A DNA stretch of 64,000 nucleotides, taken from the NCBI RefSeq assembly GCF_027579695.1, contig NC_083571.1:85325888-85389887 (forward strand), given 5' to 3'. This stretch comes from Neoarius graeffei. Lineage: Eukaryota; Chordata; Actinopteri; Siluriformes; Ariidae. Positions 6,449 to 60,699 of the stretch are shown piece after piece (the first letter of the stretch is position 1; each line of letters begins with the position of its first letter). The notes beneath the pieces are model-generated. The model had not been told where the DNA came from and did no database searches. It saw only the letters and a program-made list of their open reading frames with translations. The translations under genes were made by a program, and so were the position numbers.

Positions 6449-8026
6449 TATAATCCTTAATTCTACCATTCATTGGGAAAATCCTTGAAAAAATTGTCTT
6501 CAGTCAATTAACTGCCTTCTTGATATCAAACAGCTGTTTTGATAACTTTCAGTCAGGATTTCGTGCCAATCATAGCACTGAAACAGCGCTGATTAAAGTT
6601 ATAAATGACATGCGTCTTAATACTGATGCAGGCAAAACATCGGTCCTGGTGTTACTGGACCTCAGTGCAGCTTTTGATACTGTTGATCACAACATACTGC
6701 TATATCGACTTGAACACTGGGTTGGGTTGACTGGTAAAGTTATCGATTGGTTAAAATCATACTTAGAAGCTTCTTTGTTACCATGGGAAATTGTACCTCA
6801 ACATCAATGTTCTTGACCTGTGGTGTTTCCCAGGGGTTGATTCTTGGACCATTACTATTCAACCTTTTATATGCTCCCACTTGGACAAATTATCAAGAAC
6901 AACTCAATTTTGTATCACTGCTATGCAGATGACACCCAAATTTATTTTGCTCTATCACCTAATGATTATGCCCCCTTTGAATGTCTCTACCAGTGTATCG
7001 ACCAAATCAACAACTGGATGTCACAAAATTTTCTTCAGCTGAACACAGATAAAACAGAAGTAATTCTATTTGGGAAAAAAGATGAAAGACTCAGGATTAC
7101 CACTATTCTTGACACAAAGGGGATTAAAACAAAAGATTTGGTTAAAAATCTTGGTGTTTTCATTGACAGCGAGCTAAATTTTGACAGTCACATGAAAGCA
7201 ATCACTAAAACGGCATTTTATCACCTAAAAAACATTTCCAAACTAAGAGGACTTGTGTCAAAAAATGATCTGGAAAAACTTATACATGCCTTCATCTCTA
7301 GTAGGGTTGATTACTGCAATGGCCTTTTCACAGGCCTGCCAAAAAAGACCATCAAACGACTTCAGCTGGTTCAAAATGCAGCGGCTAGGGTTCTCAGAAC
7401 AGGGCACGTTACTCCAATTCTAAGGTCCCTTCACTGGCTTCCAGTAAGCTACAGAATTGACTTTAAAGCATTGCTGCTGGTGTACAAATCTCTAAATGGT
7501 ACAGGGCCCAATTACCTCTCTGATATGTTGCAGCGGCCTAACCCAATCAGATCTACCAGATCACAGCAGCAAAATTTACTGTTAAAACCTGTTGTTAAAA
7601 CAAAGTGTGGCGAAGCAGCTTTTAGCTACTATGCAGTACAGCTATGGAACCAACTGCCAGAGGACATTAAAAATGCTCCTGCTGTTGGCAGCTTCAAATC
7701 TAGACTAAAGACCAAGCTGTTCTCAGATGCTTTCTGCTAAATTATTAACATTGTCATCTCTACATGTTTTAAACTTTCTTAACTTTTACAGTCTCTGCAT
7801 GTTTTAAACTTTACTTAACTTTTTTATTCTATTTTATTCTGCTGTTTTTTAACTGAATTTTTACTTTATTTTATTTCTACTATTGTTTAATTCTTATTTT
7901 TCTTCCCCATTTATTTTTATGCAATTTTATTTTCTATTGTTTACTGTTTTGCTTTTACTTCTGTAAAGCACATTGAACTGCCACTGTGTATGAAATGTGC
8001 TATATAAATAAACTTGCCTTGCCTTA
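6449..8026 (+). mobile_element. 5'-truncated L2-type LINE, plus strand
   Basis: The copy encodes the reverse-transcriptase palm and beyond: SGFRANHSTETAL, LLDLSAAFDTVDH (motif A aspartate), GVSQG, then YADDTQIY (catalytic YADD, near 6925). A long open C-terminal frame runs 6844-7740 (298 codons to the stop). One extra base in the T run near 6868 and other changes near 6770-6830 break the frame between motif A and YADD, so it is not functional. The 3' end is an AT-rich UTR finishing in TTGCCTTGCC-type repeats, usual for L2. A reversed relative lies at 30631-31782. Confidence 0.88.
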
Positions 8027-8466: not shown

Positions 8467-30419
<21,953 letters not shown>

Positions 30420-30630: not shown

Positions 30631-31782
30631 ACAAGGCAAGGCAAGTTTATTTATATAGCACATTTCATACACAATGGCAGTTCAATGTGCTTTACAGAAG
30701 TAAAAACAAAAACAGTAAACAATAGAGAAATAAAATTACATAAAATAATTTTATCTTTATTCTAAAATAATTAATTAAAAGAATTAAAAGAAAATAAGAA
30801 TTAAACAATAGTAGAAATAAAATATTAAAATGCCAAAAAGAAAAAGGAGAAAAAGAAAGAGAAAGAGAAGAAAAAAAAAACCTAGCAGAATAAAATAGAA
30901 TAAAGTTAAAATAAATTTAAAACATGCAGAGAAAAAGATTATAAAAAATGTAAAAATATTAATTATTTAACAGAAAGCATCTGAAAACAGCTTGGTCTTT
31001 AACCTAGATTTGAAGCTGCCAACAGCAGGAGCATTTTTAATGTCCTCTGGCAGTTGGTTCCATAGCTGTACTGCATAGTAGCTAAAAGCTGCTTCACCAC
31101 ACTTTGTTTTAACAACTGGTTTTAATAGTAAATTTTTCTGTTGCGATCTGGTAGATCTGATTGGGTTAGGCCGCTGCAACATATCAGAGAGGTAATTGGG
31201 CCCTGTACCATTTAGAGATCTGTACACCAGCAGCAATGCTTTAAAGTCAATTCTGTAGCTTACTGGAAGCCAGTGAAGGGACCTTAGAATTGGAGTAATG
31301 TGCTCTGTTCTTTTTGTTCGTGTGAGAACCCTCGCCGCTGCATTTTGAACCAGCTGAAGTCGTTTGACAGTTTTTTTTGGCAGGCCTGTGAAAAGGCCAT
31401 TGCAGTAATCAACCCTACTAGAGATGAAGGCATGTATTAGTTTTTCCAGATCATGCTTTGACATAAGTCCTCTTAGTTTGGAAATGTTTTTTAGGTGATA
31501 AAATGCCGTTTTAGTGATTGCTTTCATGTGACTGTCAAAGTTTAGCTCGCTGTCAATGAAAACACCAAGATTTTTAACCATTTCTTTAGTTTTAATCCCT
31601 TTTGTGTTAAGTATAGTGGTAATCCTGAGTCTTTCATCTTTTTTTCCAAATAGAATTATTTCTGTTTTATCTGTGTTCAGCTGAAGAAAATTTTGTGACA
31701 TCCAGCTATTGATTTGATCGATACACTGGTAGAGACATTCAAGGGGGGCATAATCATTTGGTGATAGAGCAAAATAAATTTG
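30631..31782 (-). mobile_element. 5'-truncated L2-type LINE, minus strand
   Basis: The 3' end (left side) is CAAGGCAAGGCAAG followed by TTTATTTATATAGCAC, the L2-type tail. The minus-strand frame 31701-30967 encodes MSQNFLQLNTDKTEIILFGK through WNQLPEDIKNAP and SRLKTKLFSDAFC with a stop (244 codons). It is closely similar to the copy at 6449-8026 and one base change from its frame in the ARVLT stretch. The YADD motif is lost by truncation. Confidence 0.9.
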
Positions 31783-31840
31783 TAAAATAACTGTTTTACT
31801 CTATCCACATTCACTGGATTTTGAGAAATGGAGCATTTTT

Positions 31841-36106: not shown

Positions 36107-36852
36107 TAGCCTGGGCCCGCCCATCCTAAGTGTGACGCAACACGAGGGCCTGTTGCAAACTTAGTCTGGCAAGGCAAGCTATCTCCAGCTCTTCCAAGCT
36201 CCCGAAAAATCGGGAGCCAATCAACTTTGAGCATCTCCAACGGCCCTGGGTAGAGGCCTGTTCAAGGCAGTGACGTAGTAGAACTGCGACCGGAAGCCAT
36301 AGATTGTTTACAGAATCTATGCCGGAAGCGCTTCATTCACTAGAAACATTACGAACATGGAGCAGCGGCAAGCCTTTGACACAGCGGTAGATGCTGTATT
36401 GAAAGCATTCAACGGGAAGTTCTCATTGAAAACGGAGCAAAGAGCAGCCCTGGAGGTATTTATTGAAAGGAAGGACGTTTTCGCCTTGCTCCCGACCGGC
36501 TTCGGTAAGAGTTTAATCTACCAGTTAGCCCCGCTGGTAGCCAAATCAATGGGGCTCAGTGAGAATCCTATCATTGTGGTCATCTTGCCTTTGATCGCGC
36601 TATTATCGTCCTCTTCCTCTTCAGCTCCTCCTTCTTCCTGTTACTCAAGCAGTTTCCGTCGCGTCACATACGTCAGAGGAAAGAGTGATGTGATTGGTTT
36701 AAGCTTTGTCACAGCCTTTTCTGGCTTCGACCAGTAGCAAACTGAGGCATTTCAGGGAGGCGGATCAACCACGCGCTTTGGGAAACGGTTGGGCTTAATA
36801 TCTATGCCAGACCAAATGCTCGCAGAGCTTTGAAGTTGCGTTAGCCAGACTA
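36107..36852 (+). mobile_element. Element with 9-bp duplication carrying a RecQ-like helicase ORF
   Basis: It begins TAGCCTGGGCCCG and ends CGTTAGCCAGACTA, short inverted ends of the form TAGYCTGG. CTACATATG at 36098-36106 and 36853-36861 is a perfect 9-bp duplication of the host hAT sequence. It encloses one ORF (36357-36737). The 9-bp duplication argues against hAT (8 bp); the superfamily is open. Confidence 0.75.
36357..36737 (+). pseudogene. RecQ-like helicase N-terminus, transposon-borne
   Basis: The 126-codon frame starts MEQRQAFDTAVDAVLKAFNG. It contains a RecQ-type approach (SLKTEQRAALEVFIERKDVF), a Walker A loop LLPTGFGKSLIYQL (GFGKS) and motif Ia-like IIVVILPLIAL. After that the text turns into a serine-rich tail and stops, so motifs II (DEAH/DEVH) to VI are missing and no active helicase can be made. 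Full-length relatives are repeated in fish genomes, which suggests a mobile helicase family. A host RECQL gene is unlikely, because the frame lies wholly inside the 746-bp insertion. Confidence 0.7.
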
Positions 36853-42649: not shown

Positions 42650-43165
42650 GACATTGCCGAGGATACAAATACAAAATCTTTCTTAATCCTTCATGGAGAA
42701 TTTCTTCCAGATTAATTTACAAGGTAATAAAAAAAATTACAATATTAAAATTTACATTGGTACAATAATTAAAAAAAACTAGTTACTTAAAAATTTAGAC
42801 AATAATAACTTATTTAAATTGCCCTGAAACGCATGTGGGCTAGAGCTTGACTTGATGTTTGGGGGAACAGTGTTCCACGTTCTGGCGCCAAGATATATAA
42901 AGGACTGTTGTGCAAGTGACGTGCGGCATTTGGTCTCTGTTCCTGGTGTTCTACCTGTGAACCTCTGATCTCAGATGATAAAGTTGAGTTAAGTACAGAG
43001 GTGCTAAATTATTTCTGATCTTAAACATCATTGTAGCTTCCCTGATGTAAAGAAGGTCAGATACAGGAAGTAGCCTAAGCGGTTTCATAATTGGAGTGAT
43101 ATGGTCAAACTTCCTTTTGCCACATAAGAGACGGCCAGCAAAGTTTTGCACGAGTTGTTTACTTG
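42650..43165 (-). pseudogene. LINE 3' fragment, minus strand
   Basis: The minus-strand frame 43151-42951 reads QNFAGRLLCGKRKFDHITPI then LRLLPVSDLLYIREATMMFK and NNLAPLYL, the C-terminal region of an L2/Jockey-type reverse transcriptase. It is truncated on the 5' side at the SINE that follows. Confidence 0.75.
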
Positions 43166-43180
43166 TTTATGTTTACTTGC

Positions 43181-43560
43181 GGGGCGGCACGGTGGTGTAG
43201 TGGTTAGCGCTGTCGCCTCACAGCAAGAAGGTCCTGGGTTCGAGCCCCGGGGCCGGCGAGGGCCTTTCTGTGCGGAGTTTGCATGTTCTCCCCGTGTCCG
43301 CGTGGGTTTCCTCCGGGTGCTCCGGTTTCCCCCACAGTCCAAAGACATGCAGGTTAGGTTAACTGGTGACTCTAAATTGACCGTAGGTGTGAATGTGAGT
43401 GTGAATGGTTGTCTGTGTCTATGTGTCAGCCCTGTGATGACCTGGTGACTTGTCCAGGGTGTGCCCCGCCTTTCACCCGTAGTCGGCTGGGATAGGCTCC
43501 AGCTTGCCTGCGACCCTGTAGAACAGGATAAAGCGGCTAGAGATAATGAGATGAGATGAG
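43181..43560 (+). mobile_element. tRNA-derived SINE next to the mysm1 promoter
   Basis: Full length from the GGGGCGGCACGG head to the GATGAGATGAG tail. No target duplication is visible. Its 3' end lies 139 bp before the mysm1 ATG. Confidence 0.92.
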
Positions 43561-43699
43561 AAGTCCTGGAAGAAGGTGGTACAGTATTTACGCTCTGGGC
43601 TGCAGTATCGCCTCCCGGCCACACGGTGTCGCTCTGAAAATGCAACCCGGAAGGAACGTCGTCTCTCTGCCTCTTTTCAGCCGCTTCTTCACCAGAATC
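43561..43699 (+). promoter_or_regulatory. mysm1: Probable mysm1 promoter and 5' UTR
   Basis: This short stretch between a SINE and the start codon must hold the core promoter unless an upstream exon exists. It has an ETS-like ACCCGGAAGG at 43645-43654, no TATA box, and a pyrimidine-rich run GTCTCTCTGCCTCTTTTC (about 43660-43678) that resembles a terminal-oligopyrimidine start. ATCATGGCGG spans the start codon and resembles a YY1 site. All of this is inference from motifs. Confidence 0.5.
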
Positions 43700-43761
43700 A
43701 TGGCGGACGAGGTGGATGTTGTTGACATCGAAGGAGACGAGGAGTGTGATGGAGATGAGGG
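43700..43761 (+). CDS. mysm1: mysm1 coding exon 1
   Basis: The ATG at 43700 begins [20 protein letters not shown], the acidic family start. The donor is GG|GTAAAC at 43762. The in-frame codons before 43700 lack family similarity. Confidence 0.88.
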
Positions 43762-43947
43762 GTAAACGTAACTCCTGAATAAATTTTTGAGCTTTTAAAG
43801 GATTGTTATGGAGGACAATTTGTTTTCAAAAGCCCAGGATTCAGGCATGACACGAAAGTAAGGCTGCGTTCCAAGTCGTGCACTTTAACACCCTTTAAAG
43901 CATGAGTTCAGGCCCCTGTTACTGCACTTGGAGCAGGGACACTATAG

Positions 43948-43978
<31 letters not shown>

Positions 43979-46900
43979 CTTTATTGATCCCTTTGGGCGG
44001 GTTCCCTCAGGGAAATTAAAATTCCAGCAGCATCATTACAGGATAAACAGAGAATAGAAAAAATAGAAAACTTGTAGGTAAATTAAGTATTAACATCTGC
44101 AAATATAAAACATTAAATATGAAAAAAGGTCCAGCAGGAGAGATATTGCACTTTATATTGCACATTGTCCGGTATTGCTTATCGTCAGGCTAGGCTACTG
44201 CTCCTTCCCGTCCTCTGTCCTCCTGTTCCCCCTCCTCCCCCCCAGAGAGGAGCTGTACAGTCTGATGGCGTGAGGGACAAAGGAGTTTTTGAGTCTGTTC
44301 GTCCTGCACTTGGGAAGGAGCATTCTGTCACTGAACAGGCTCCTCTGGTTGCTCATGACGGTGTGCAGAGGGTCACTGGCATCGTACATGATGTTCAGTA
44401 GTTTGTCCATAGTCCTCTTCTCTGCCACCGTCACCAGAGAGTCCAGCTTCACGCCGACCACAGAGCCGGCCCGCCTGATCAGTTTGTCCAGCCTGGATGT
44501 GTCCTTCTTGGATGTGCTGCCCCCCCAGCACACCACGGTGTAAAACAGGACACTGGTGACCACAGACTGATAGAACATCCACAGGAGTTTCCTGCAGATG
44601 TTAAAGTGCATATTCTGGACCAATTTCATTATTCTTTTATATGAAAGTATGTCCCTTTACACACTCATCCAGAAGGGTAATTTTGCGCAAGGCCGTCTGT
44701 CTACAGCAGAAAAAAATAAAACGCGTCTGGAAAAATCCCAAGAGAGTCTGGAGCCAGATTCGTGACGTCACCTGCGGAAGCGCCAGCAGGCTGTGCGAGC
44801 TTTGCACGGTTTCAGTGCACAGCCTGTGTAGACCAAGTGCTCCCATTTCTCTCATTGTCCGGCCTTTTGGGAAACGATGAGTACTAATCCCATCAAGATT
44901 GGTGTTGCTACCCCCTCCTACGATACATCTGTTAACCGTTTTAATAATGACGTGATAACGTTGAAGAAATTTGCAGTAAACCACCAGGTCGTTTTCTCAT
45001 AAACAAACCAGCGCTGACGTAGGATTCAGAGGGAGGCGTCCCACACGCGACGTCACAAAAATCAGTGTTTGCCGGAAATCCAAACGGCAAGTTTTTTCAG
45101 AGGCGGACCAATTCGCCTCAAATGGCTTGATTTCAACTGAATTGTTCTGGTATTGCTCAAGGTAGAAAAAAAATTGCACAGAATGCAGAATGTTACAGAT
45201 ATTTGACCAAAGTTTAATATAAAATAGAAGACTTACAGTGATCTCGCTCCTGAATTTACCCGTGATATGCACTTTAAAGGACCGCAGCCTCCTCAGGAAG
45301 TATAGCCTGCTCTGTCCCTTCCTGTACTGGTGTTTGGTGTTGCAAGTCCAGTCCAGCTTGTTGTCCAGCCACAGCCCGAGGTACTTGTAGGAATCCACAG
45401 CCTCCACCTCGACTCCCTCGATCAGAACTGGTCTGGACCTTCCAAAGTCAATGACCAGCTCCTTGGTCTTTGAGGTGTTGAGCTGCAGATGGTTCCTGTT
45501 GCACCAAACGGCAAAGTCCCTCACCAGGCTCCTATATAGTTTCAGACATTTCTGTGTCTTGTTTATTGGTTTATCTTGTTTATTGACTCATACATTTAAG
45601 CAAAAGGGCTGGATTGTTATTTAGTGATTTTTATCATCATGATTGAAATGAAATGAAACGAATGCATTTACTGCCTGAGATTCATCTCATCTCATTATCT
45701 CTAGCTGCTTTATCCTGTTCTACAGGGTCGCAGGCAAGCTGGAGCCTATCCCAGCTGACTATGGGCGAAAGGCAGGGTACATCCTGGACAAGTCGCCAGG
45801 TCATCACAGGGCTGACACATAGACACAGACAACCATTCACACTCTCATTCACACCTACGGTCAATTTAGAGTCACCAGTTAACCTAACCTGCATGTCTTT
45901 GGGGGAAACCGGAGCACCCGGAGGAAACCCACGCGGACACGGGGAGAACATGCAAACTCCACACAGAAAGGCCCTCGCCGGCCCCGGGGCTCGAACCCGG
46001 ACCTTCTTGCTGTGAGGCAACAGTGCTAACCACTACACCACCGTGCCGCCCCTGCCTGAGATTTTGTGAATAAAATGAATCCTGATGCTCTTACCTACGA
46101 TGCTGATCAGGTTAAACATGTAACCTGCTTGATTTTCCAGTGATCTTACCAGAGCAGTGATGCTCCAGGATCAGTACTTACAGTCAGCATGGAGGACTGA
46201 CCCTGCTGTCCTGGTAAGAGAGAGTTTTAATTTGAGCCAACACACTGAGAAGAACATGAACTCTTTTATTGGGTTTGATCTGATCATTTAGATTCCACAT
46301 GTTTTGTTTTTTCTCTCTCAGCCCTGGACTCTGGATAACTCAATCAGCGCTGAGAACCGAGAGATCATTGAGAGCATGCTGTTGGAAGAACAATATCCTT
46401 CTTCAAAATGACACAAGGTTTCCTTTTGAATTCACTTTCATTCATTCATGATCTATACCGCTTATCCATCACGAGGTTCATCCTGGACAGGTAGTCAGTC
46501 TCTCACGGGGTTAACACAGCGAGACGGACAGCCACTCACTCACTCACTCACTCACTCACTCACTCACTCACATTCACACCGATGGCAATTTATTGAAGCC
46601 TAATCTGCATGTCTTTGGATGGTAGGAAGGAATTTTTTGTTGTTTTGTTTTTTAATATAACACTTTATTGAAAATGTACAAAACCAATATGGCAACATCC
46701 TGATGTTATCCTATTAAATATAGGGAAGAACAAACAAATTATCAAAGGGAACAATCTGATCAAAATCTAGTATAAATAACTTGTCATACAAAATTGAAAT
46801 GATGTAGGAAGTGCTGTCGTTAAATATGTACGTGGATAGAAAGGGGGAAAGTAAACAAGCAAGAAAAATGATAAAAAAAAATGAAACTAGATAGAGACTG

Positions 46901-49900
46901 TGACTAAAGTTACAGTAATTTGCGCTAGCTGTTACAAACTGGCAGAGGTGGACAGTAACGAAGTGCATTTACTTGAGGACTGTACTTGAAGCCTAGGTCA
47001 CAACTGGACGTACAATTTTTTTGGCCGTGCGATTTTTGGCGTTTCCCAAATCGCTGCGTTTTTTTTTTTGTTCGTGGAGAAAGACGCACGTTGGCCGTAA
47101 GTTTGTCTTGCAACCTGAAAAAAACTTAAGCACCCGTAGTTTGTTTGACATGACAAAGAACCTCTGCAGCCAGTCTACGGCTCGAAAATCAGCACATCAC
47201 ACGCGCGCCCTCCGTGCGTTTCTTGCGTTTTTTGCACGTAGACCGGCCGTAGGAGCACGTACGGCCGGTTGTGACCAAGGCTTAAGTACACTTTTTGAGT
47301 ATCTGTACTTTACTTGAGTATAATTTTTTTTGGAAACTTGTGACTTTAACTTCATTACATTTGAAAGGCAAATATCGTACTTTGTACTCCACTACATTTC
47401 TATCAAGGTCCTCGTTACTCTGAAGCAGCTTTGAAAGTGGATGTTTTTTTTTTCTTTTCTAAGGGCCCGTTTACACGAGGATGCTGTCGGGTAAAAACGA
47501 CTAAATATTTTATCAGAAGTGCCTTTCGTTTACACGGGGACGGCGTTTCCAAGGCTGAAAAACGGATAAAATTGAAAACGCCTTCCAGAGTGGATAAGTT
47601 AAAAACAGCCCCCGTTGCATATCCGTCTAAACTACCCAATACGCGAAACTCTGCTCGGATCTGCTCACGTCGGGTATGCGTTTATGTCATACATATGTCA
47701 TATACTGTACATGCCAGCCCGGGAAGTAAGAAAGTAAGTAAAAAAGTATGAGCATGTCTGATTACATCGATCCAACGGACCTTCAAGCTGCTGTGTGTTT
47801 TAATGCAGTAGATGTGTTTTCCTGCTCACCTGCCCAGCTGGAGCTCCTCAGTTTGGTGTCGCCAAGTTACACGCACGCACGCGCGCGCCGCCTATTCAAG
47901 CCGCTCGTGAAACCATAAACCCGAGACTGAAAACAAAACTAGCAGCCGAACGGGTTTATTTTGCTGAGATGGACACTGCCTTTTCTCTTCTTCACCGAAA
48001 CAAGAGTGAGTGTTACTTAATAAAGGCAGATTAAAAGAGTTTCGGTTTGCTCCTGCTCCTCCCTCGAGCACTACAGTACCTCAGCCGGACCGGTGTTCTG
48101 TGAAGTTATCCTAGCAAGTTCTCATACAGACCGTTTTATTATTCAAAACAAGTCGTTACAAATTATTTGACTCAGCCAAAGACTCGACCAATACGCACAA
48201 AACATAAAAATCGGCAAATGCGTGAAATTCTAACCGATTTTCTATCAGCCCAGCTGATCGGTGGGACAAAACTACTGTTGAATTTTCCTACCCTCCTGGA
48301 TTTCGCGCATGCGCAGTAGGCTTGGTAGGATAACTTGACAGAACAGCAGCGCAGATGTGCAGATCAGACAAGACGGAAGACGTTGCGCATGCGTGCAGAC
48401 ATAGCGGAGACATTTATGCGTCACCGTATAGACGCAGATTTCCTCCTTGAAAATGGTCGTGTAGACGCGGAAAAAAGTGAGAACGAAAACGGACTTTTGC
48501 GTTTTTGTTTTATACCGTCCCCGTGTAAAGTGGGCCTAAAATGTGATTGGTTTTTTCGCAGGTGACACTGAGGCAGCCCATCAGTAATCACTAGGGTCAT
48601 TTCACGTCCATAGACTATAAAATCAAGTTCAGTGATTTCTCAGCAGCTTTATTTGAACACAATCCGTTGATGGCTGAATGTAAGGAGGCGGTTCTTCTGG
48701 AGATTGCACGCACCCATGGCCATTTCGTTTTAAATGTTTGCTTTGTTTGCCGAAAACGAACCACATCACAGCCTCCAAAAACTCGCCGTCCGACCTGCGG
48801 AAGCATATTGAGGTATATAAACGTTTTATTCCAAGAGAAAGCTTGTAATGAAGTTGTCTGTGCTTTTAGAGCTCGCGATAATGTTGCAATAGCTATGCAG
48901 TCTGGTTCGTCAAATGATTTTCTATGGATTTGCCCGCCAATTTGCCGTAGCCTTGTCCATGGCTAAGGTTAACACACAGCTAGTTAATTTGGACACTGTT
49001 AGTTAGCATGTAAAAACAGAGTTATGCTAACATGAATAACATTTAACTTATCCAAAGTCCTTTCAGAAATATGTTTCAGCATAATCTTGCCAAATAAACA
49101 GAATGTAGAAATCTTTCTTTTCTAGTAGCGTTAGCTACCCAATATGATTTCGAGTTTGAAAAGAGTTTGCTAGCATGTCAGGTGGAGCTTCACTGACTAG
49201 CTAGCTTAACGTTAAACCACCATAATGGCACAGCATGCGTTCATTTTGTGAATTCACATTTCTGTCTTTGGTCACTGCATTAGGTTTTGTTTAGCGTTGT
49301 GGCAATAATACAACAATGCGTTGACAGAAAATGTATTTTTAATACTTAAGCATTTTTAAAAGCAAGTACTTCAGTACTTTAACTTAAGTAAAAATTTGAC
49401 TGGACAACTTTCACTTGTATCGGAGTAACATTTGACCAGTGGGATCTGTAAGGAATGAAGTTGGGTACTTTGTCCACCTCTGCAAACTTGGAAGTCTGGT
49501 CACCGTACCCTATAGATCTGGGTAGATAAAGAATGACGCTTAGTGAGGAAAAGTTGTGCCCTGCTGTCCTGAACAAAATTGGAAAAAAAAAATCATGAAA
49601 ATTGACAGTTATATGTGATTTGAAAAAAATCCCATTTTTCATGGATCATTCCGGATCAGTGATCCAGATCACCACCAAAAGTCATAGCAATGTAATTCAG
49701 CCCAGAGGTTTTCTTCATGTGAAATTTGGTGGTGATTGGCTGAAAACTGAGTCGATAAGTGTCCTATAAACGTTAGGAGAATAATAATAAGAGGAATAAT
49801 AAAATAGAAAGATCCTGAGTGAGAGTAACCATTTGCACCAGTGCTGCTAGCACAAATAAAACGCCCAAAAGGGGAAAAACAGTTTTATCTTGATTATCTA

Positions 49901-52900
49901 ATTCAGTGGGGAAATGTTTTAAAATATCATCCAATCTTTTTGCTTTTGCTCCTGTTACAAATTTTAAGGGTCTTAAATATAATTTAAATACAGTCAAGAA
50001 AGAAAGAAATTTGGGGGATGATTTTAGGATTCTATTCTTGTGTATTTAAAAAAAAAACCTTAGCCAGACATAGAATTACAACTATGGCAAGAAATTGTAG
50101 AAAACCCACACAGTCACGAGGAGGACATCCACACGCCACAGCGTGCCATCAGTTCACTTTTAATTGTCCATATTGTCCGAAAGCACGTGTGTACATCCTT
50201 AATTTTGCTCACATATTATTTTGCTGGGAAGAAGGTTCCGAAAGTGGCATGGACGGATGAAAAGCCGAAAGTAAAAAAGTGAGTAAAGAATGAAGTGTAA
50301 TGTTTTCAATTTTGTGTCGAGATGATTATCTAGAACAAATGACCTTGAAGTGATTTAAGTGCTGTTGCTGAATCTAATAAGCTATTGTCAGCTTTTTGAA
50401 CAAGAGGAGTCTAGAAAGTTTGTGTAACCCTGCGCAGGTCGCCAGTGAAGAGCTCTGGAGCTTCGGCTCGTTGGGCACAAGAGGAGAAAGAGCTCTTTGA
50501 GAGAGGACTGGTATGGTTTTGTTACACCTTAGTTTTCAACAACGGCTAACATACGAGTGTAATCGTGTTAAAAACGTATAATCACTTCTGTGATTTTCCT
50601 GAACTAGGCTCAGTTTGGCCGGAGGTGGACCAAAATCGCAAAGCTGATCGGCACTAGGACTGTCCTTCAAGTGAAGAGCTACGCCAGGCAGTACTTTAAG
50701 AACAAGGTACGGCGTGACAGCGTGGACTCTTTTTTTTTTTTCTGGATCTTCTCAGGATTTTTAATGCCACGTTTGTACCTTTCGAGATTCTTGAGATGTT
50801 TGGAAATTTGGGTTTAAAGGAGAACTGAAGTAATTTTTAAACTTGCTTTATTTCTGAATTGACGTGTTCTTCAATTACGTTTTCGGTTTTAGTAACCTTG
50901 TGTCGTGACTCGTATTGGCAACTAATTGCAATTAAATATTATACTTATCAGCCTATTCGGTTTTTAGCCACATTGAATTTAGTTTATTTGATCCATGGCA
51001 AGCGTCGCTTATCCGCGCGATTTTCACGAGACTTGTGCGAGACTTCGAAACGTGAAGCGTCAGTGCCGCCATTTTGAAAACTGTTTTCCAAATGAAATAT
51101 TGCACAAAAACGAGTTTAAATGACGAGTACTGCCTACTTTTTTCAAACTTTCCTGATTGCTATCAAAACAAAAACAAAACTTCCGGCTTGATTACGTCAG
51201 CATTCGAAAGAGGCCGCGCACATCTTTTGACAGCGTTGGCAGATGTCGGTCACTTTGATTTCCGCTGTACGTTTTACATCCGTCTTACGATGTCTTGCAC
51301 AGGTCTCAGCGAATCTCGTTTACGCCCATTGCTTTAACTTATGGACTGATATATTACAGAGCATATTTCAAACACTAACTTGCTATTGCAGTGACAAAAT
51401 AGCTATCAAAAATGCATTCCTATATTTAATAAAATGAGAAATAGAATTTTGATAAAACACTTAGCCTTCAGTTCTCCTTTAATGTGTGCAAGGTGCCGTG
51501 TGCACATCAGCACATGAACATTTTAAAGATATTTAAGACTACGTTCAGACTGCACCCTGAAACGACCCATATCCGATTTTTTTTTGCCCATATGCGACCT
51601 GTATCCGATTTGTTATTGACAATCTGAACGACACAGATCCGATTTTTTCACATGCGACCCAGGCCGCTTGGATATGTGGTCCTAATTCCGATGCATATCC
51701 GATATTTTCACATGCGACTGCAGTCTGACCGGACAGGTCGCATTCATGCGACCTACACGTCATCAACAAGAGACAAACGTCACTATTCTGCGTTGGCTAA
51801 TCCCGCCTCTTTGGTGGAAAACAACAACATTTTATACAGTTTTCAGAATTTAAATAGACTTTTATAGAATTGATCAAGCTAATGGTGGCTTTGGTAGGGA
51901 CCTGGATGTTTATCTGTTAGCCTGATTAAATAAAACAGTTTCTAGAACTGATTTATAACTTAAACCATCCTGTATTACAAGATTATAAGATTGTTCTGGA
52001 AATTTCCAGTAATTTGACACCTTCGGTCTCATTACTCTGCTGCCCACATTAATCAGATTATTGTGTGAGTTCCGCCGCCGCCACAAAAACCACATCGCCA
52101 GGTCTCGCCTCATCTCCATAGCAAACTGCACTGGTGTTTCTGCACCTTGAGCCAGCGCTGAGAGAAGTTGCAGAATTCAGCTGGCTATAAACAATCTAAA
52201 TAAATATTTATAAAAATGTAGAAAAAGTTTATTAATATGACGAAATAAATATGTGCAAATTATTAAGCCTGAATTAAGAGTTTGGTAATACAGCGGCCGT
52301 ATCCCAAATGACTGCCTGCTGAAGCTCGAGTGCACTATATAGAGTTTAAAAATCCATTACTTCCTAGTAACATGTAGTGCACTTATATAGAAATTAGAGA
52401 GACATTTAGGAGTCAACCCTCGTTACCAGGCTACACGTTTTCATTTCAGTTCAGAAACAAAAACACACACGAGACCTCACACTTTAACACTAACCAGATA
52501 ATTAAACAAACAAACCAAAAAAAATCATTAAACGTGAAGAGTGCGCTTTTTTTTTTTTGTTTACGTATTATGTAGATGTGCTTATTACGTGTCAATTTGC
52601 GCATGCGGGACACTTTTGGGTCGTTTTCCGTTCATATTGGAGATCGCACACAAGTCTCATATAATTGGTAATGTGAACGGCCTAACAAAAAAATTCGGAT
52701 TTCACAACAAATCGGATATGGGTCGTTTCAGGTTGCGGTCTGAAGGTAGTGTAAGATGCGTTTGAAGCGTTTCTCGAGACCTACAATTATTACACAATTT
52801 CAAAGATGCCTTGGAAAAACTGATCTGCGATATGTTTCTTTATTTTCATGCTTTTCTGTATGTTTTCCAGCCTATAAGTTGGCATATCAGGTGAAAATTC

Positions 52901-55900: not shown

Positions 55901-58283
55901 GCAACAGATATTCAAGGTATAAGTAGATGAAATGAACATAAAAGGGGTCTTATTTTCAGCTAAAGTGTACTGCAGATGTAGGGAGTTGAAACATTTTCTG
56001 AATGAGCTAGTTGGCCCCTTTAAATAAACGGGTATCTATTCATACAGTGAGATCGCCAAAGTTTAATAAACTGAAAATGCAATAACTGTAATTTTGAAGT
56101 AGATGATGTATAGGACGTGTCGCTTGTGTCTTGTGACTTATTGTAAAAATGATATAAAGGGTTCAAAATTGCATAGTTACAAATATAATAGTAACTTCAT
56201 ATGATATTAACCACTGGTTATTTCAGAGAGGAAAAAAATGGGGACACTATTGCTTCCATTCGGGACAATACAACACAGAATTCGGGACCACTGGGGGACA
56301 CAAAGAAAAAAAGTTAATTTCGAGCCCTGGAGACGACTCTTTGCTTTTAAAAAAAAAATAGTAGTCTCAGGTACAGTGAGTGCAGTTCGATAAGGAAATG
56401 AGCTGTAGGTTTGACTGAGCATCTTACAGAACCAGCCACAGTTCTTCTGGACACTTTGACCGTCACACTCGCTTCTTCATTCTGCACCAAAACCCAGCAG
56501 CCTTCATTATGTTTCCTTTTTTTAATCTGAAAAGTCGTCTCTTCTGTCATATGCTGCTCAGATACAAACTTTTTTCTGTAACATTTAATTTTATGCTGGA
56601 AAACAAGCATTTGGAACTCCTCTCATTATCTCTAGCCACTTTATCCTGTTCTACAGGGTCGCAGGCAAGCTGGAGCCTATCCCAGCTGACTACGGGCGAA
56701 AGGCGGGGTACACCCTGGACAAGTCGCCAGGTCATCACAGGGCTGACATATAGACACAGACAACCATTCACACTCACATTCACACCTACGGTCAATTTAG
56801 AGTCACCAGTTAACCTAACCTGCATGTCTTTGGACTGTGGGGGAAACCGGAGCACCCGGAGGAAACCCACGCGGACACGGGGAGAACATGCAAACTCGGC
56901 ACAGAAAGGCCCTCGCCGGCCACGGGGCTCGAACCCGGACCTTCTTGCTGTGAGGCGACAGCGCTAACCACTACACCACCGTGCCGCCCGCATTTGGAAC
57001 TCTAAAATGTTTTTGTACTGACCTTGATAATGTAGAAGTCATAAAAAACAAATCTATAACAAAGTTTATATAAAAAAAAAATGAACAGTAAGACTTTTGC
57101 ACAGTACTGTATATGTTCGAACATGTCCATCACATGATTCTATGCTTATTCAGCATTAAACATGGATGCAAACGGCGCGCCTTTTGGCGGATGCCGCCTT
57201 TTTCACGGCTGTCTGGGGGACTTGTGTGAATCGCGCAGATCCGATGAGATGAGCTTTTTTTTTGGGGGGGGGGGGGGGGGAGTGTCTGATTATAATTTCA
57301 TCAAAGTAAGTTCTGTATTAAAATTACTAAATAAGCAAATGCCGTTACAGTCCATGAAACATAGGAAGTATAAGTATGAGAAGAAAACAGTAAATCAGAA
57401 AGCTGTGCATGTAAAGCCAATTACGTAACTTGCGTAACTTGCGTTGGACTGATGGGAAATCCTTGCGCGTGCAGTGAAGTGCAGCCAGCAGCTGATAATG
57501 GCGCGCAGCCAATTGGCTTTACGTGCGCAGCTTTCTGATTTACTGTTTTCTTCTCATACTTATACTTCCTATGTTTCATGGACTGTAACGGCATTTGCTT
57601 ATTTAGTAATTTTAATACAGAATTTACTTTGATGAAATTATAAGACACTCCAACGCCCCCTCCCCCCCAAAAAAACCCCCTCATCGGATCTGCGCGATTC
57701 ACACAAGTCCCCCAGACAGCTGTGAAAAAGGTGGCATCCGCCAAAAGGCGCGCCGTTTGCATCCATGATTAAAACTAGTGTTCTCCTTAACCACGGTGCA
57801 GTTATAACTGTTCAGAAATAGTGTTTTGGATAGTGACATTGGTATTTCTTTTGGGAGATAAAGTTGAGAAGAGTCCACTAGAAGACACCGAAGACCAGGA
57901 CGAAGAAGAGGAGCTGAAGCCCCCCGAACAGGAAGTGACGCTGGACACAAGTACCATCACCGAAGAAGAAAAGCAGGCCATCCCAGAATTCTTTGAGGGT
58001 CGTCTGTCAAAAACGCCAGAGCGATATCTGAAAATCCGCAACTACATACTGGACCAGTGGTGAGTGTGCGATGGATCCTGATGGATTTATGAGGCAAAAA
58101 TCACCAATATGTGCAGCTTCGAGTGCCTGTTTGTGTATGTGGTGTGTATTAGGGAGAAGAGCAAACCCAAGTACTTAAATAAGACGTCAGTGCGTCCAGG
58201 CTTGAAGAACTGCGGGGATGTGAACTGCATTGGCCGAATACACACCTACCTGGAGCTCATAGGGGCGATCAACTTCAACTGTG
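43700..58283 (+). CDS. mysm1: Myb-like, SWIRM and MPN domain protein (histone H2A deubiquitinase), 5' part
   Basis: The exons are 43700-43761, 46141-46213, 46322-46392, 50213-50278, 50438-50510, 50608-50706, 54379-54829, 57858-58059 and 58153-58283, with phases agreeing throughout (409 codons plus one base). MYSM1 removes ubiquitin from histone H2A in the nucleus and activates blood and immune genes. Visible in order: acidic start [40 protein letters not shown]; a SANT/Myb domain (about residues 99-148, [14 protein letters not shown] and [20 protein letters not shown]); the conserved [20 protein letters not shown]; and a SWIRM domain (about 325-409, [51 protein letters not shown]). The MPN+ (JAMM) exons are not in the window, which ends 5.7 kb after exon 9. 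Intron 3 is of U12 AT-AC type. Confidence 0.95.
43953..45540 (-). mobile_element. 5'-truncated LINE, minus strand, split by a Kolobok-like element
   Basis: The 3' end (left) is a (GATA)n run at about 43953-43978 followed by TCTTTATTGATCCC. The minus-strand frame 45524-45280 reads [20 protein letters not shown] and [15 protein letters not shown]. After the insertion it continues as [20 protein letters not shown] and [20 protein letters not shown] (44600-44195), a Jockey/CR1-type reverse transcriptase C-terminus. It lies in mysm1 intron 1. Confidence 0.85.
44605..45273 (-). mobile_element. Kolobok-like TTAA element, copy 2
   Basis: The ends AGTGCATATTCTGGACC and ACCCGTGATATGCACT are mirrored. 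TTAA at 44601-44604 and 45274-45277. Removing the element restores the LINE reading [11 protein letters not shown], which proves the target. The minus strand encodes a THAP start [19 protein letters not shown] then [11 protein letters not shown] before a frameshift. It is a near-complete reversed relative of the left and right parts of copy 1 (37150-40031). Confidence 0.88.
45683..46051 (-). mobile_element. tRNA-derived SINE, minus strand
   Basis: Full length. CTGCCTGAGATT at 45671-45682 and 46052-46063 is its 12-bp duplication. A short body deletion removes the GACTGTG word near 45900. Confidence 0.93.
46141..46213 (+). CDS. mysm1: mysm1 coding exon 2
   Basis: The acceptor GATTTTCCAG ends at 46140 and the donor CTG|GTAAGA is at 46214. 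It encodes [20 protein letters not shown], which aligns with the human QKDHYLDSSWRT stretch. Confidence 0.93.
46322..46392 (+). CDS. mysm1: mysm1 coding exon 3, ends at a U12 donor
   Basis: The acceptor TCTCTCAG ends at 46321. It encodes [20 protein letters not shown] then LEE and the first two bases of Gln. The next bases are ATATCCTT, a U12-type AT-AC donor, in place of GT. Confidence 0.93.
46440..46625 (-). mobile_element. Old SINE relic with (CACT)n
   Basis: The words CTTATCCATCACGAGG, CATCCTGGACAGGTAGTC and CTGCATGTCTTTGGA follow the SINE order on the minus strand. A CACT repeat has expanded inside it (about 46543-46572). Confidence 0.6.
46992..47280. mobile_element. Nested MITE with 20-bp inverted ends
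   Basis: CCTAGGTCACAACTGGACG and CGGCCGGTTGTGACCAAGG are mirrored. The flanks CTTGAAG / CTTAAG suggest a 6-7 bp target. 289 bp, non-coding. Confidence 0.7.
47463..48536. mobile_element. Nested Harbinger-like element with TAA duplication
   Basis: GGGCCCGTTTACACGAGGA at the left mirrors GTCCCCGTGTAAAGTGGGCC at the right, with a second inner copy (CGTTTACACGGGGACG) near 47527. TAA at 47460-47462 and 48537-48539. No transposase. Confidence 0.75.
48726..48812 (+). pseudogene. BED zinc-finger exon remnant in the hAT
   Basis: Twenty-nine codons, [14 protein letters not shown] then DLRKHIE, give the C-x2-C and the first His of a BED finger, ending at a donor-like GAG|GTATAT. The remaining transposase exons are absent. 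Confidence 0.6.
49491..50195. other. mysm1: Remaining U12 intron sequence
   Basis: No repeat with boundaries was recognised between the hAT and the branch motif at 50196. Confidence 0.35.
50213..50278 (+). CDS. mysm1: mysm1 coding exon 4, begins after an AC acceptor
   Basis: Starting after TTTGCTCAC (ending 50212), the exon completes Gln and encodes [20 protein letters not shown], matching the human EYYLSKKSQPEKVW region. The donor AAAAA|GTGAGT is at 50279. Confidence 0.92.
50438..50510 (+). CDS. mysm1: mysm1 coding exon 5 (SANT, first part)
   Basis: The acceptor CCTGCGCAG ends at 50437 and the donor CTG|GTATGG is at 50511. It encodes [20 protein letters not shown] then ERGL. Confidence 0.94.
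50608..50706 (+). CDS. mysm1: mysm1 coding exon 6 (SANT, second part)
   Basis: The acceptor GAACTAG ends at 50607 and the donor AACAAG|GTACGG is at 50707. It encodes [20 protein letters not shown] then [13 protein letters not shown], nearly identical to mammals. Confidence 0.96.
50818..51478. mobile_element. TTAA-target element with AGGAGAACTGAAG ends
   Basis: AGGAGAACTGAAG and CTTCAGTTCTCCT are perfect inverted ends. TTAA at 50814-50817 and 51479-51482. 661 bp, with no recognisable transposase (piggyBac- or Kolobok-like). It lies in mysm1 intron 6. Confidence 0.82.
51537..52751. mobile_element. Harbinger-like element with TAA duplication
   Basis: GACTACGTTCAGACTGCA and TGCGGTCTGAAGGTAGTG are mirrored, and the similarity continues through CTGAAACGACCCATATCCGA on each side. 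TAA at 51534-51536 and 52752-52754. Sub-terminal repeats of the form CATGCGACC occur. No transposase. Confidence 0.78.
52755..54378. other. mysm1: Unannotated mysm1 intron 6 sequence
   Basis: No exon or bounded element was recognised. A (GA)n run lies at 53792-53819. Confidence 0.35.
53792..53819. repeat. (GA)n microsatellite
   Basis: A run of about 13 GA units. Confidence 0.9.
54379..54829 (+). CDS. mysm1: mysm1 coding exon 7 (linker)
   Basis: The acceptor AACCTAAAG ends at 54378 and the donor GACG|GTACCT is at 54830. A proline- and glutamine-rich low-complexity linker surrounds the conserved block [20 protein letters not shown]. Confidence 0.92.
55666..55729. mobile_element. 64-bp hairpin insertion with 15-bp perfect inverted ends
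   Basis: GGTCCGTGTATCATC (55666-55680) and GATGATACACGGACC (55715-55729) are exact inverse copies. The flanks CTGGCA at 55660-55665 and 55730-55735 are a 6-bp duplication. Copy 1 of the host hAT has no insert at this place. Confidence 0.8.
55783..55872. repeat. 24-bp tandem repeat in hAT copy 2
   Basis: GGATAACGGAAAGTTCATAA recurs about four times with a 24-bp period. Confidence 0.9.
56620..56989 (-). mobile_element. tRNA-derived SINE, minus strand
   Basis: Full length. GCATTTGGAACTC at 56607-56619 and 56990-57002 is a perfect 13-bp duplication. Confidence 0.94.
57161..57767. mobile_element. Long foldback element (about 280-bp arms)
   Basis: The left arm (57161 to about 57425) and right arm (about 57505-57767) are near-identical inverted copies, with ends CATGGATGCAAACGG and CCGTTTGCATCCATG. 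ATTAAA at 57155-57160 and 57768-57773 flanks it. A G run and a C run stand at mirrored places. It ends 90 bp before mysm1 exon 8. Arm sequence recurs at 26640-26848. Confidence 0.82.
57858..58059 (+). CDS. mysm1: mysm1 coding exon 8 (SWIRM, first part)
   Basis: The acceptor TTTTGGGAG ends at 57857 (a weak pyrimidine tract) and the donor CAGTG|GTGAGT is at 58060. The exon encodes an acidic run, then [20 protein letters not shown] and the start of SWIRM. Confidence 0.94.
58153..58283 (+). CDS. mysm1: mysm1 coding exon 9 (SWIRM, second part)
   Basis: The acceptor GTGTATTAG ends at 58152 and the donor TGTG|GTAATG is at 58284. It encodes [20 protein letters not shown] and [17 protein letters not shown]. 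The next exon is not in the window. Confidence 0.95.
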
Positions 58284-59330: not shown

Positions 59331-60322
59331 TAGATGTTCAATGTAGCACCGTGGTCCTGGAGAAACGTAGTTTCGTTTTAACTGTGTGTACTGTACCAAC
59401 TGTATATGGTTGAAATGACAAACAAAAAGACCTTGACCTTATTCGGTCTGAGTGAAGCGATTGGACGAACTAACTGCATGTCTACCTGTGCGCTCTCTGC
59501 CCTTGCACTCATTGCACGTGACCAGAGTTTTCCACGAGGCTAGGCAGACGCATCAGACGTATCGCTGAAGCTTGCGAGCTAGTCGACAGCTGTGAGTACT
59601 AACAATAGCCGTGCTAGTTGTTTACATTCATTATGATATATATTAGGTCTTTTCTTACATGTGAATGAGAGATGAGGCAGTTGGATTGGACAACGAAGCG
59701 CGACACTTTTCCCCCACCGCTCTCTTCCATGGACTCCTCCACCAGCAGTAGTCAGGCAGTGCACGTTCATGTGTTTGGACGAGTGGCTTTGGACAAGGTG
59801 CAGGAGGGAGGGGGTGGGATACTTTCAAAATCTAGCTTACTCTTGTTGGTTTCTCCATTGTTTCAATTAGTTATTAAAAAAAATAATTAGTTTATCATTA
59901 CCATGGCAGTTTGCAGGTTAATCTGCATGAAGCATGCGTCGTCTTCCCTCAGTCTGCACCATGACCCTTCTCACAGAGTCAGACGACTCATCTAAACCAG
60001 CACGAGACAATAACACGCTCAAGGACTTGTATGCAACACGTGTAACTTGTGTAATTGTTAAGTTTTCTGTGAAGCGACGTTTATTTAGCATCATGTCAGC
60101 GCTTGATAACAGTCAGATATAAAGCTGGAACTAAGAAAACGTCTTTACGATGAAGGGCTTTGTGCTTTTTTTTATGGTCTTGTTAACTTCAGAAAAGAGA
60201 CAGAGAGGATGGTCAGAGAACGGTTGTTTATTTATAGCGATTGTAACAAGTGATAACTGGAACTAACGTGTTTTTGCGAAAATAAAACGTAATGTCTAAA
60301 AATGTATAATAAAACTGTAATC
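59331..60322. other. Unannotated stretch, probably mysm1 intron 9
   Basis: No mysm1 exon was found. A frame at 59672-59890 contains QAVHVHVFGRVALDKV, loosely like the expected next-exon words, but no acceptor gives the right phase, so it is not called. Confidence 0.35.
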
Positions 60323-60699
60323 GGGCGGCACGGTGGTGTAGTGGTTAGCGCTGTCGCCTCACAGCAAGAAGGTCCTGGGTTCGAGCCCCGTGGCCGGCGA
60401 GGGCCTTTCTGTGTGGAGTTTGCATGTTCTCCCCGTGTCCGCGTGGGTTTTCTCCGGGTGCTCCGGTTTCCCCCACAGTCCAAAGACATGCAGGTTAGGT
60501 TAACTGGTGACTCTAAATTGAGCGTAGGTGTGAGTGTGAGTGTGAATGGTTGTCTGTGTCTATGTGTCAGCCCTGTGATGACCTGGCGACTTGTCCAGGG
60601 TGTACCCCGCCTTTCGCCCGTAGTCAGCTGGGATAGGCTCCAGCTTGCCTGCGACCCTGTAGAACAGGATAAAGCGGCTAGAGATAATGAGATGAGATG
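60323..60699 (+). mobile_element. tRNA-derived SINE, full length
   Basis: AAAACTGTAATC at 60311-60322 and 60700-60711 is a perfect 12-bp duplication. Confidence 0.94.

Follow-up and report, generated by a model that had tools for sequence, protein, structure and literature searches.

We analysed a 64,000-nucleotide (nt) stretch of the Neoarius graeffei genome (C3:85325888-85389887, hereafter the window), which carries the first exons of a mysm1 gene on its plus strand; genome searches covered the whole 2.34 Gb, 38-contig assembly. We hold with high confidence that intron 3 of this gene is a minor-class (U12-type) intron with AT-AC ends, most likely removed by the minor spliceosome and swollen by nested transposons. 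The intron begins ATATCCTTCT and finishes ACATCCTTAATTTTGCTCAC, and the features that define it are the following.

46393-50212, plus strand: mysm1 intron 3, 3,820 nt, AT-AC, phase 2 (frame, exon scoring and motif placement)
46393-46400, plus strand: U12-type AT-AC donor ATATCCTT (motif scan)
46409-46411, plus strand: in-frame TGA, from intron base 17, which would stop translation if intron 3 were kept
50196-50203, plus strand: U12-type branch site TCCTTAAT (motif scan)
50211-50212, plus strand: 3' splice site AC (sequence and motif scan)
46322-46392, plus strand: mysm1 exon 3, 71 nt, with a phase 2 end (CA) (homology to the human sequence; frame)
50213-50278, plus strand: mysm1 exon 4, 66 nt, donor GTGAGT (score 50 among 306 candidate exons)

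Splice signals and reading frame at the intron 3 borders

The donor ATATCCTT at 46393 agrees with [AG]TATCCTT at 8 of 8 positions, so the first-pass annotation of this DNA was right to call it a perfect U12 AT-AC donor. At the other end, the second A of TCCTTAAT is base 50202, 10 nt upstream of the last intron base. The same annotation had described a perfect branch site 10 nt before an AC end; the distance stands, but the site itself falls one position short, as the extended form ATCCTTAAT agrees at 8 of 9 positions with TTCCTTRAY, the U12-type branch-site consensus. Splicing at these borders would join GAA GAA CA with ATATTATTTT, so that the stretch EEQYY would precede the SANT domain. As ATAT stands on both sides, the position of the cut is ambiguous by 4 nt; AT-AC is one choice among five that are equivalent, and in the genome search exons 3 and 4 have matches that share four query bases, which correspond to this ambiguity.

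Because reading through exon 3 meets the TGA at 46409, the donor must precede that position. From 46325 to this stop there are five GT/GC donor sites (one GT, four GC), and enumeration of GT-AG and GC-AG splicing gave 21 stop-free in-frame donor-acceptor pairs. The EEQ-YY junction is broken in 21 of 21 products, which bears out the earlier claim that these borders alone restore EEQYY. It is scarcely credible, then, that exons 3 and 4 are spliced GT-AG with slightly shifted exon ends: one GT in exon 3 (46381) does lie before the in-frame stop and is stop-free with two AG sites, but both resulting products lack LEEQ and gain unrelated residues, the context of this GT is poor (GCT/GTTGGA), and the remaining 19 of the 21 alternatives require a GC donor.

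The placement of exon 4 was scored against the human segment, among all candidates that follow an AG or AC and precede a GT (n = 306); the proposed exon scores 50, and the best unrelated candidate 25. We also estimated how often the two signals would arise by chance, using a first-order Markov model of the intron with 2,000,000 simulated trials per end. In 229 trials the donor fell on one or other of the five equivalent cuts, and in 193 the 3' signal fell at the junction, so that both motifs would fall at this protein-fixed junction by chance with a joint probability of about 1e-8 under the model, if the two ends are independent. When both strands of the window were scanned for a donor, a branch motif and fitting terminal dinucleotides, two pairs were found, both using the 46393 donor: intron 46393-50212 and one ending at 57808.

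The second of these pairs involves a U12-like 3' site, TCCTTAAC, at 57784 in the intron before the SWIRM exon, where an AG at 57801 (11 nt past the second A of the motif) or an AC at 57808 could serve as the end. This site was rejected: its sole donor pairing in the window is that with 46393, through AC 57808, and the SWIRM exon starts later, after its own AG (by eye).

The major (U2) spliceosome does excise a few introns with AT-AC ends. U12-type introns have no distinct polypyrimidine tract; in intron 3, 14 of the final 20 bases are pyrimidines, which would suit U2 removal. We nevertheless regard such removal as very improbable here, since AT-AC ends make up 0.02% of zebrafish U2-type introns (PMC7367187) and U2 removal gives no reason for a full ATATCCTT donor together with a suitably spaced U12 branch motif.

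Several points weigh against assigning intron 3 to the U12 class. The exon 3-exon 4 junction is a prediction from sequence, and the human MYSM1 reference behind the exon 2-5, exon 4 and downstream-exon comparisons is provisional. In the exon 4 scoring, three other acceptors, including an AG at 50152, reach the same score of 50 as the AC end, because the extra residues of these longer exon versions carry no penalty. Taken alone, ATATCCTT occurs in the window at chance level (2 found, 2.1 expected) and TCCTTRAY below it (5 found, 10.4 expected), and the branch site of intron 3 deviates from the consensus at one position. Its distance of 10 nt from the intron end is slightly below the optimum of 11-13 nt quoted for U12-type introns in a review (PMC3584512). 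Duplex energies with the pairing stretches of U12 and U6atac did not discriminate: shuffled branch sites paired with the U12 stretch equally well in 2,014 of 20,000 cases, and shuffled donors with the U6atac stretch in 9,289 of 20,000. Local RNA folds at both intron ends showed nothing notable (the first sequence folded was one letter off), and Rfam at gathering scores and ARAGORN gave 0 matches each on the window.

Identity and extent of mysm1

Four further exons of the gene were placed in the window.

43700-43761, plus strand: mysm1 exon 1, with the start codon (frame joins exon 2)
46141-46213, plus strand: mysm1 exon 2 (homology to the human MYSM1 sequence; frame)
50438-50510, plus strand: mysm1 exon 5, start of the SANT/Myb domain (homology to the human MYSM1 protein; frame)
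50608-50708, plus strand: mysm1 exon 6, SANT/Myb domain (PF00249, E 4.7e-08; 2cu7 KIAA1915, E 8.2e-21)

Joined across the AT-AC ends, exons 1-6 give 148 codons with 0 stops, and the remaining introns among them have GT-AG borders in 4 of 4 cases. Matches to entries named KIAA1915, a former name of MYSM1, were obtained for both the SANT segment (the solved structure 2cu7, E 8.2e-21) and the SWIRM segment (2dce, E 1.3e-24). Both Myb_DNA-binding and SWIRM score above their Pfam cut-offs, and on these homologies the identification as mysm1 is firm.

The gene extends beyond the window, to about 95604 in window coordinates. Its downstream exons were recognised using the human protein, with a best segment of 90% identity over 63 residues; some stretches of that protein, such as residues 239-363, were unmatched in the downstream region. 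The MPN exons found there contain GWYHSHPAFDPNPSLRDID, which holds the JAMM motif, and mysm1 appears to be complete and intact at this locus. Because the gene continues to these exons, we infer that intron 3 must be removed.

With 2 of 2 candidates scored, joined exons 2-5 matched a single genome locus, as four exons that each reach 100%, and the same search revealed no mysm1 retrocopy that could be used as complementary DNA. That this locus is instead a decayed copy whose junction is free of selection strikes us as extremely improbable. The locus is very transposon-rich, as a decayed copy might be, but it is the only one that exons 2-5 match, its frame is open through six exons, and conservation is good in the segments from the SWIRM and MPN exons. 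Among viral contigs, the SANT segment gave 19 pattern matches, of which 0 were confirmed as relatives. In intron 1, a minus-strand open frame (44997-45587) matches PF09004 (ALKBH8_N; E 8.3e-07), a label that has been put on the tails of long interspersed nuclear elements (LINEs) in fish.

Minor spliceosome RNAs in the genome

Matches to all four RNAs that would act on such an intron were found in the assembly, with counts that are lower bounds, as the best candidates alone were scored: at least 1 for U12 (122.8 bits, cut-off 53), at least 18 for U6atac (best 130.1 bits, cut-off 33), at least 1 for U4atac (87.1 bits, cut-off 53) and at least 1 for U11 (114.6 bits, cut-off 39). The U12 match contains GAGUAAGGAAAAU, the stretch that pairs with the branch site, and the best U6atac match contains AAAGGAGAG, the stretch that pairs with the donor. 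Seven U6atac-like matches (50.8-59.9 bits) lie within 1.5 kb at C2:71796499-71797969; with far better single copies elsewhere, this cluster looks as if degenerate copies had been amplified locally.

Nested transposons in intron 3

The middle of intron 3 is occupied by a composite element, in which the following units were delimited.

46943-49482, plus strand: hAT-type element, composite, 2,540 bp (target-site duplication (TSD), terminal inverted repeats (TIRs), and borders matched by a second copy)
46990-47282, plus strand: foldback miniature inverted-repeat transposable element (MITE) within the hAT, 293 bp (missing from the second hAT copy)
47463-48536, plus strand: Harbinger-like element within the hAT, 1,074 bp, 3-bp TSD TAA (second hAT copy empty here, with TCTAAAA)
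48094-48345, plus strand: inverted-repeat unit within the Harbinger-like element (25-nt arms, 92%)

hAT elements carry an 8-bp TSD and short TIRs starting with CAG, and PIF/Harbinger elements a 3-bp TWA TSD. The outer element is flanked by CAAACTGG and CAAACTTG (7 of 8 identical) and ends in the TIR CAGAGGTGGACA (12 of 12 identical). The family has another copy beyond the window, at window coordinates 68261-69423 (1,163 bp), in a later mysm1 intron (intron 11 by a provisional count); it is about 87% identical over the long right part, has a TSD of AGTGTGAT and CATGTGAT (6 of 8), and contains neither the MITE nor the Harbinger-like insert. The MITE, whose TIR arms (46989-47013 and 47259-47283) are 88% identical, is bordered by TGA and TAA where the second copy has a single TAA, and the Harbinger-like element likewise has TAA on each side where the empty copy has one. 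Judged by these empty sites, the nesting of both elements in the hAT, as first annotated, holds. The inverted-repeat unit (arms 48094-48118 and 48321-48345) adds to the elements first annotated; no empty site was seen for it, and it may be a further insertion or a portion of the Harbinger-like element.

The hAT family is abundant, with at least 40 scored genome matches (own locus included, all E = 0) out of 6,254 first-look candidates. A Pfam scan of one hAT-derived open reading frame (ORF; 48670-48963) gave nothing above a cut-off, and so no transposase domain. Two ORFs within the Harbinger-like element match no Pfam family, and we therefore term it Harbinger-like only. As side observations, mysm1 bears two insertions of the same hAT family, and the second copy begins 15 nt past the exon before it (GAG/GTAGTGGAGTGTGAT/CAGAGG), almost on the splice site.

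Between the hAT and the donor of intron 3 there are 550 nt, and between the hAT and the branch motif 714 nt, so that intact splice signals are unremarkable. The description of both signals as perfect in spite of the insertions thus needs tempering: it fits the donor (8/8), it is overstated for the branch site (8/9), and survival is expected with inserts this distant.

Proposed mechanism and predicted consequences

In the mechanism that we propose, the U11/U12 di-snRNP (di-small nuclear ribonucleoprotein) would recognise both ends of intron 3 and the U11/U12-U4atac/U6atac spliceosome would excise it, giving EEQYY before the SANT domain. The hAT, probably non-autonomous, landed mid-intron and later took in the foldback MITE and the Harbinger-like element; the splice signals lie outside the inserts and stayed untouched. 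The splicing of intron 3 is predicted, and we infer on good grounds that MYSM1 output would depend on the minor spliceosome.

If intron 3 were kept, five residues (YPSSK) would follow EEQ and translation would stop at 74 residues. Joint skipping of exons 3 and 4 (137 nt) would shift the mysm1 frame, and the resulting exon 2-5 product would be the expected aberrant form if minor splicing fails. Olthof and others (PMC8034651) report that exons on either side of minor introns are skipped when minor small nuclear RNAs are blocked, which makes this the form to seek. In-frame skipping of exon 4 alone (66 nt), in which a U12 donor would have to be used with a U2 acceptor, is unlikely. Since retained minor introns are shorter than non-retained ones in zebrafish zrsr2 mutants (PMC9501576) and in mouse tissues (PMC6717393), intron 3 may be among the minor introns less sensitive to retention. 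The locus offers a clear testable case in which the reading frame of a chromatin gene would rest on one AT-AC intron, with its aberrant products predicted.

MYSM1 is a histone H2A deubiquitinase required for blood and B-cell formation, and defects of the minor spliceosome are associated with Roifman syndrome and ZRSR2-mutant myelodysplasia. If the human orthologue shares intron 3, MYSM1 would become a candidate for linking minor-spliceosome disease to blood-cell defects. The full form of this idea, in which an ancient, vertebrate-wide U12 AT-AC intron 3 makes MYSM1 a direct route from the defects behind these two conditions to blood-cell harm, is speculative and, in our judgement, rather improbable.

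Other repeats and open frames in the window

Two long open frames (6841-7737 and 30970-31800) are closely alike by eye; the first has a reverse transcriptase match barely above cut-off and the second matches no Pfam family, and the two are probably LINE copies. A DDE_3 endonuclease match (PF13358, E 6.5e-08) at 24476-24859 is probably a Tc1/mariner-type remnant, and an open frame at 36303-36734, which matches the DEAD-box helicase family (PF00270, E 3e-08), may belong to a transposon or be a fragment of a gene. A many-copy repeat with long spurious open frames was recognised by eye at 12384-12737, 15151-15534, 43088-43825, 45647-46012, 56419-56964 and 60293-60697, and one copy lies, also by eye, just upstream of the mysm1 start codon.

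Comparison with known minor introns and fish transposons

MYSM1 is not named as a minor-intron gene in the papers that we read, which do not include the supplements with the catalogue lists. PMC8345071 covers MYSM1 and minor introns separately. Vertebrate U12 introns are lost or converted very slowly (PMC3584512), and intron 3 is therefore probably old and already present in U12 catalogues. Among U12 introns, the AT-AC share is 22% for zebrafish, 12% for fugu and 26% for human (PMC7367187, Table 2); AT-AC introns are thus a minority among minor-class introns, as the first-pass annotation had it, but not the small one that it described.

The hAT resembles known fish hAT elements with nested MITE and Harbinger-like inserts in its 12-nt identical TIR, its 8-bp TSD and its high copy number, and differs in the lack of a transposase domain in the one intron 3 hAT ORF scanned. 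Compared with the vertebrate U12-type AT-AC introns of IAOD, U12DB and MIDB, intron 3 has the same donor [AG]TATCCTT, a branch motif near the 3' end, the same AT/AC pairing and phase 2, and it likewise stands alone among GT-AG neighbours. There is no difference in kind, and intron 3 is a genuine but ordinary minor intron. At 3.8 kb it is near the mean length of 3,556 given for those zebrafish U12 introns that escape retention when Zrsr2 is lost (PMC9501576). What sets it apart from these long introns is that the source of its length has been dissected, with the hAT and its inserts contributing 2,540 of 3,820 nt; in evolutionary terms, it is a modest and sharply bounded case of a minor intron absorbing 2.5 kb of transposon sequence with its splice signals kept.

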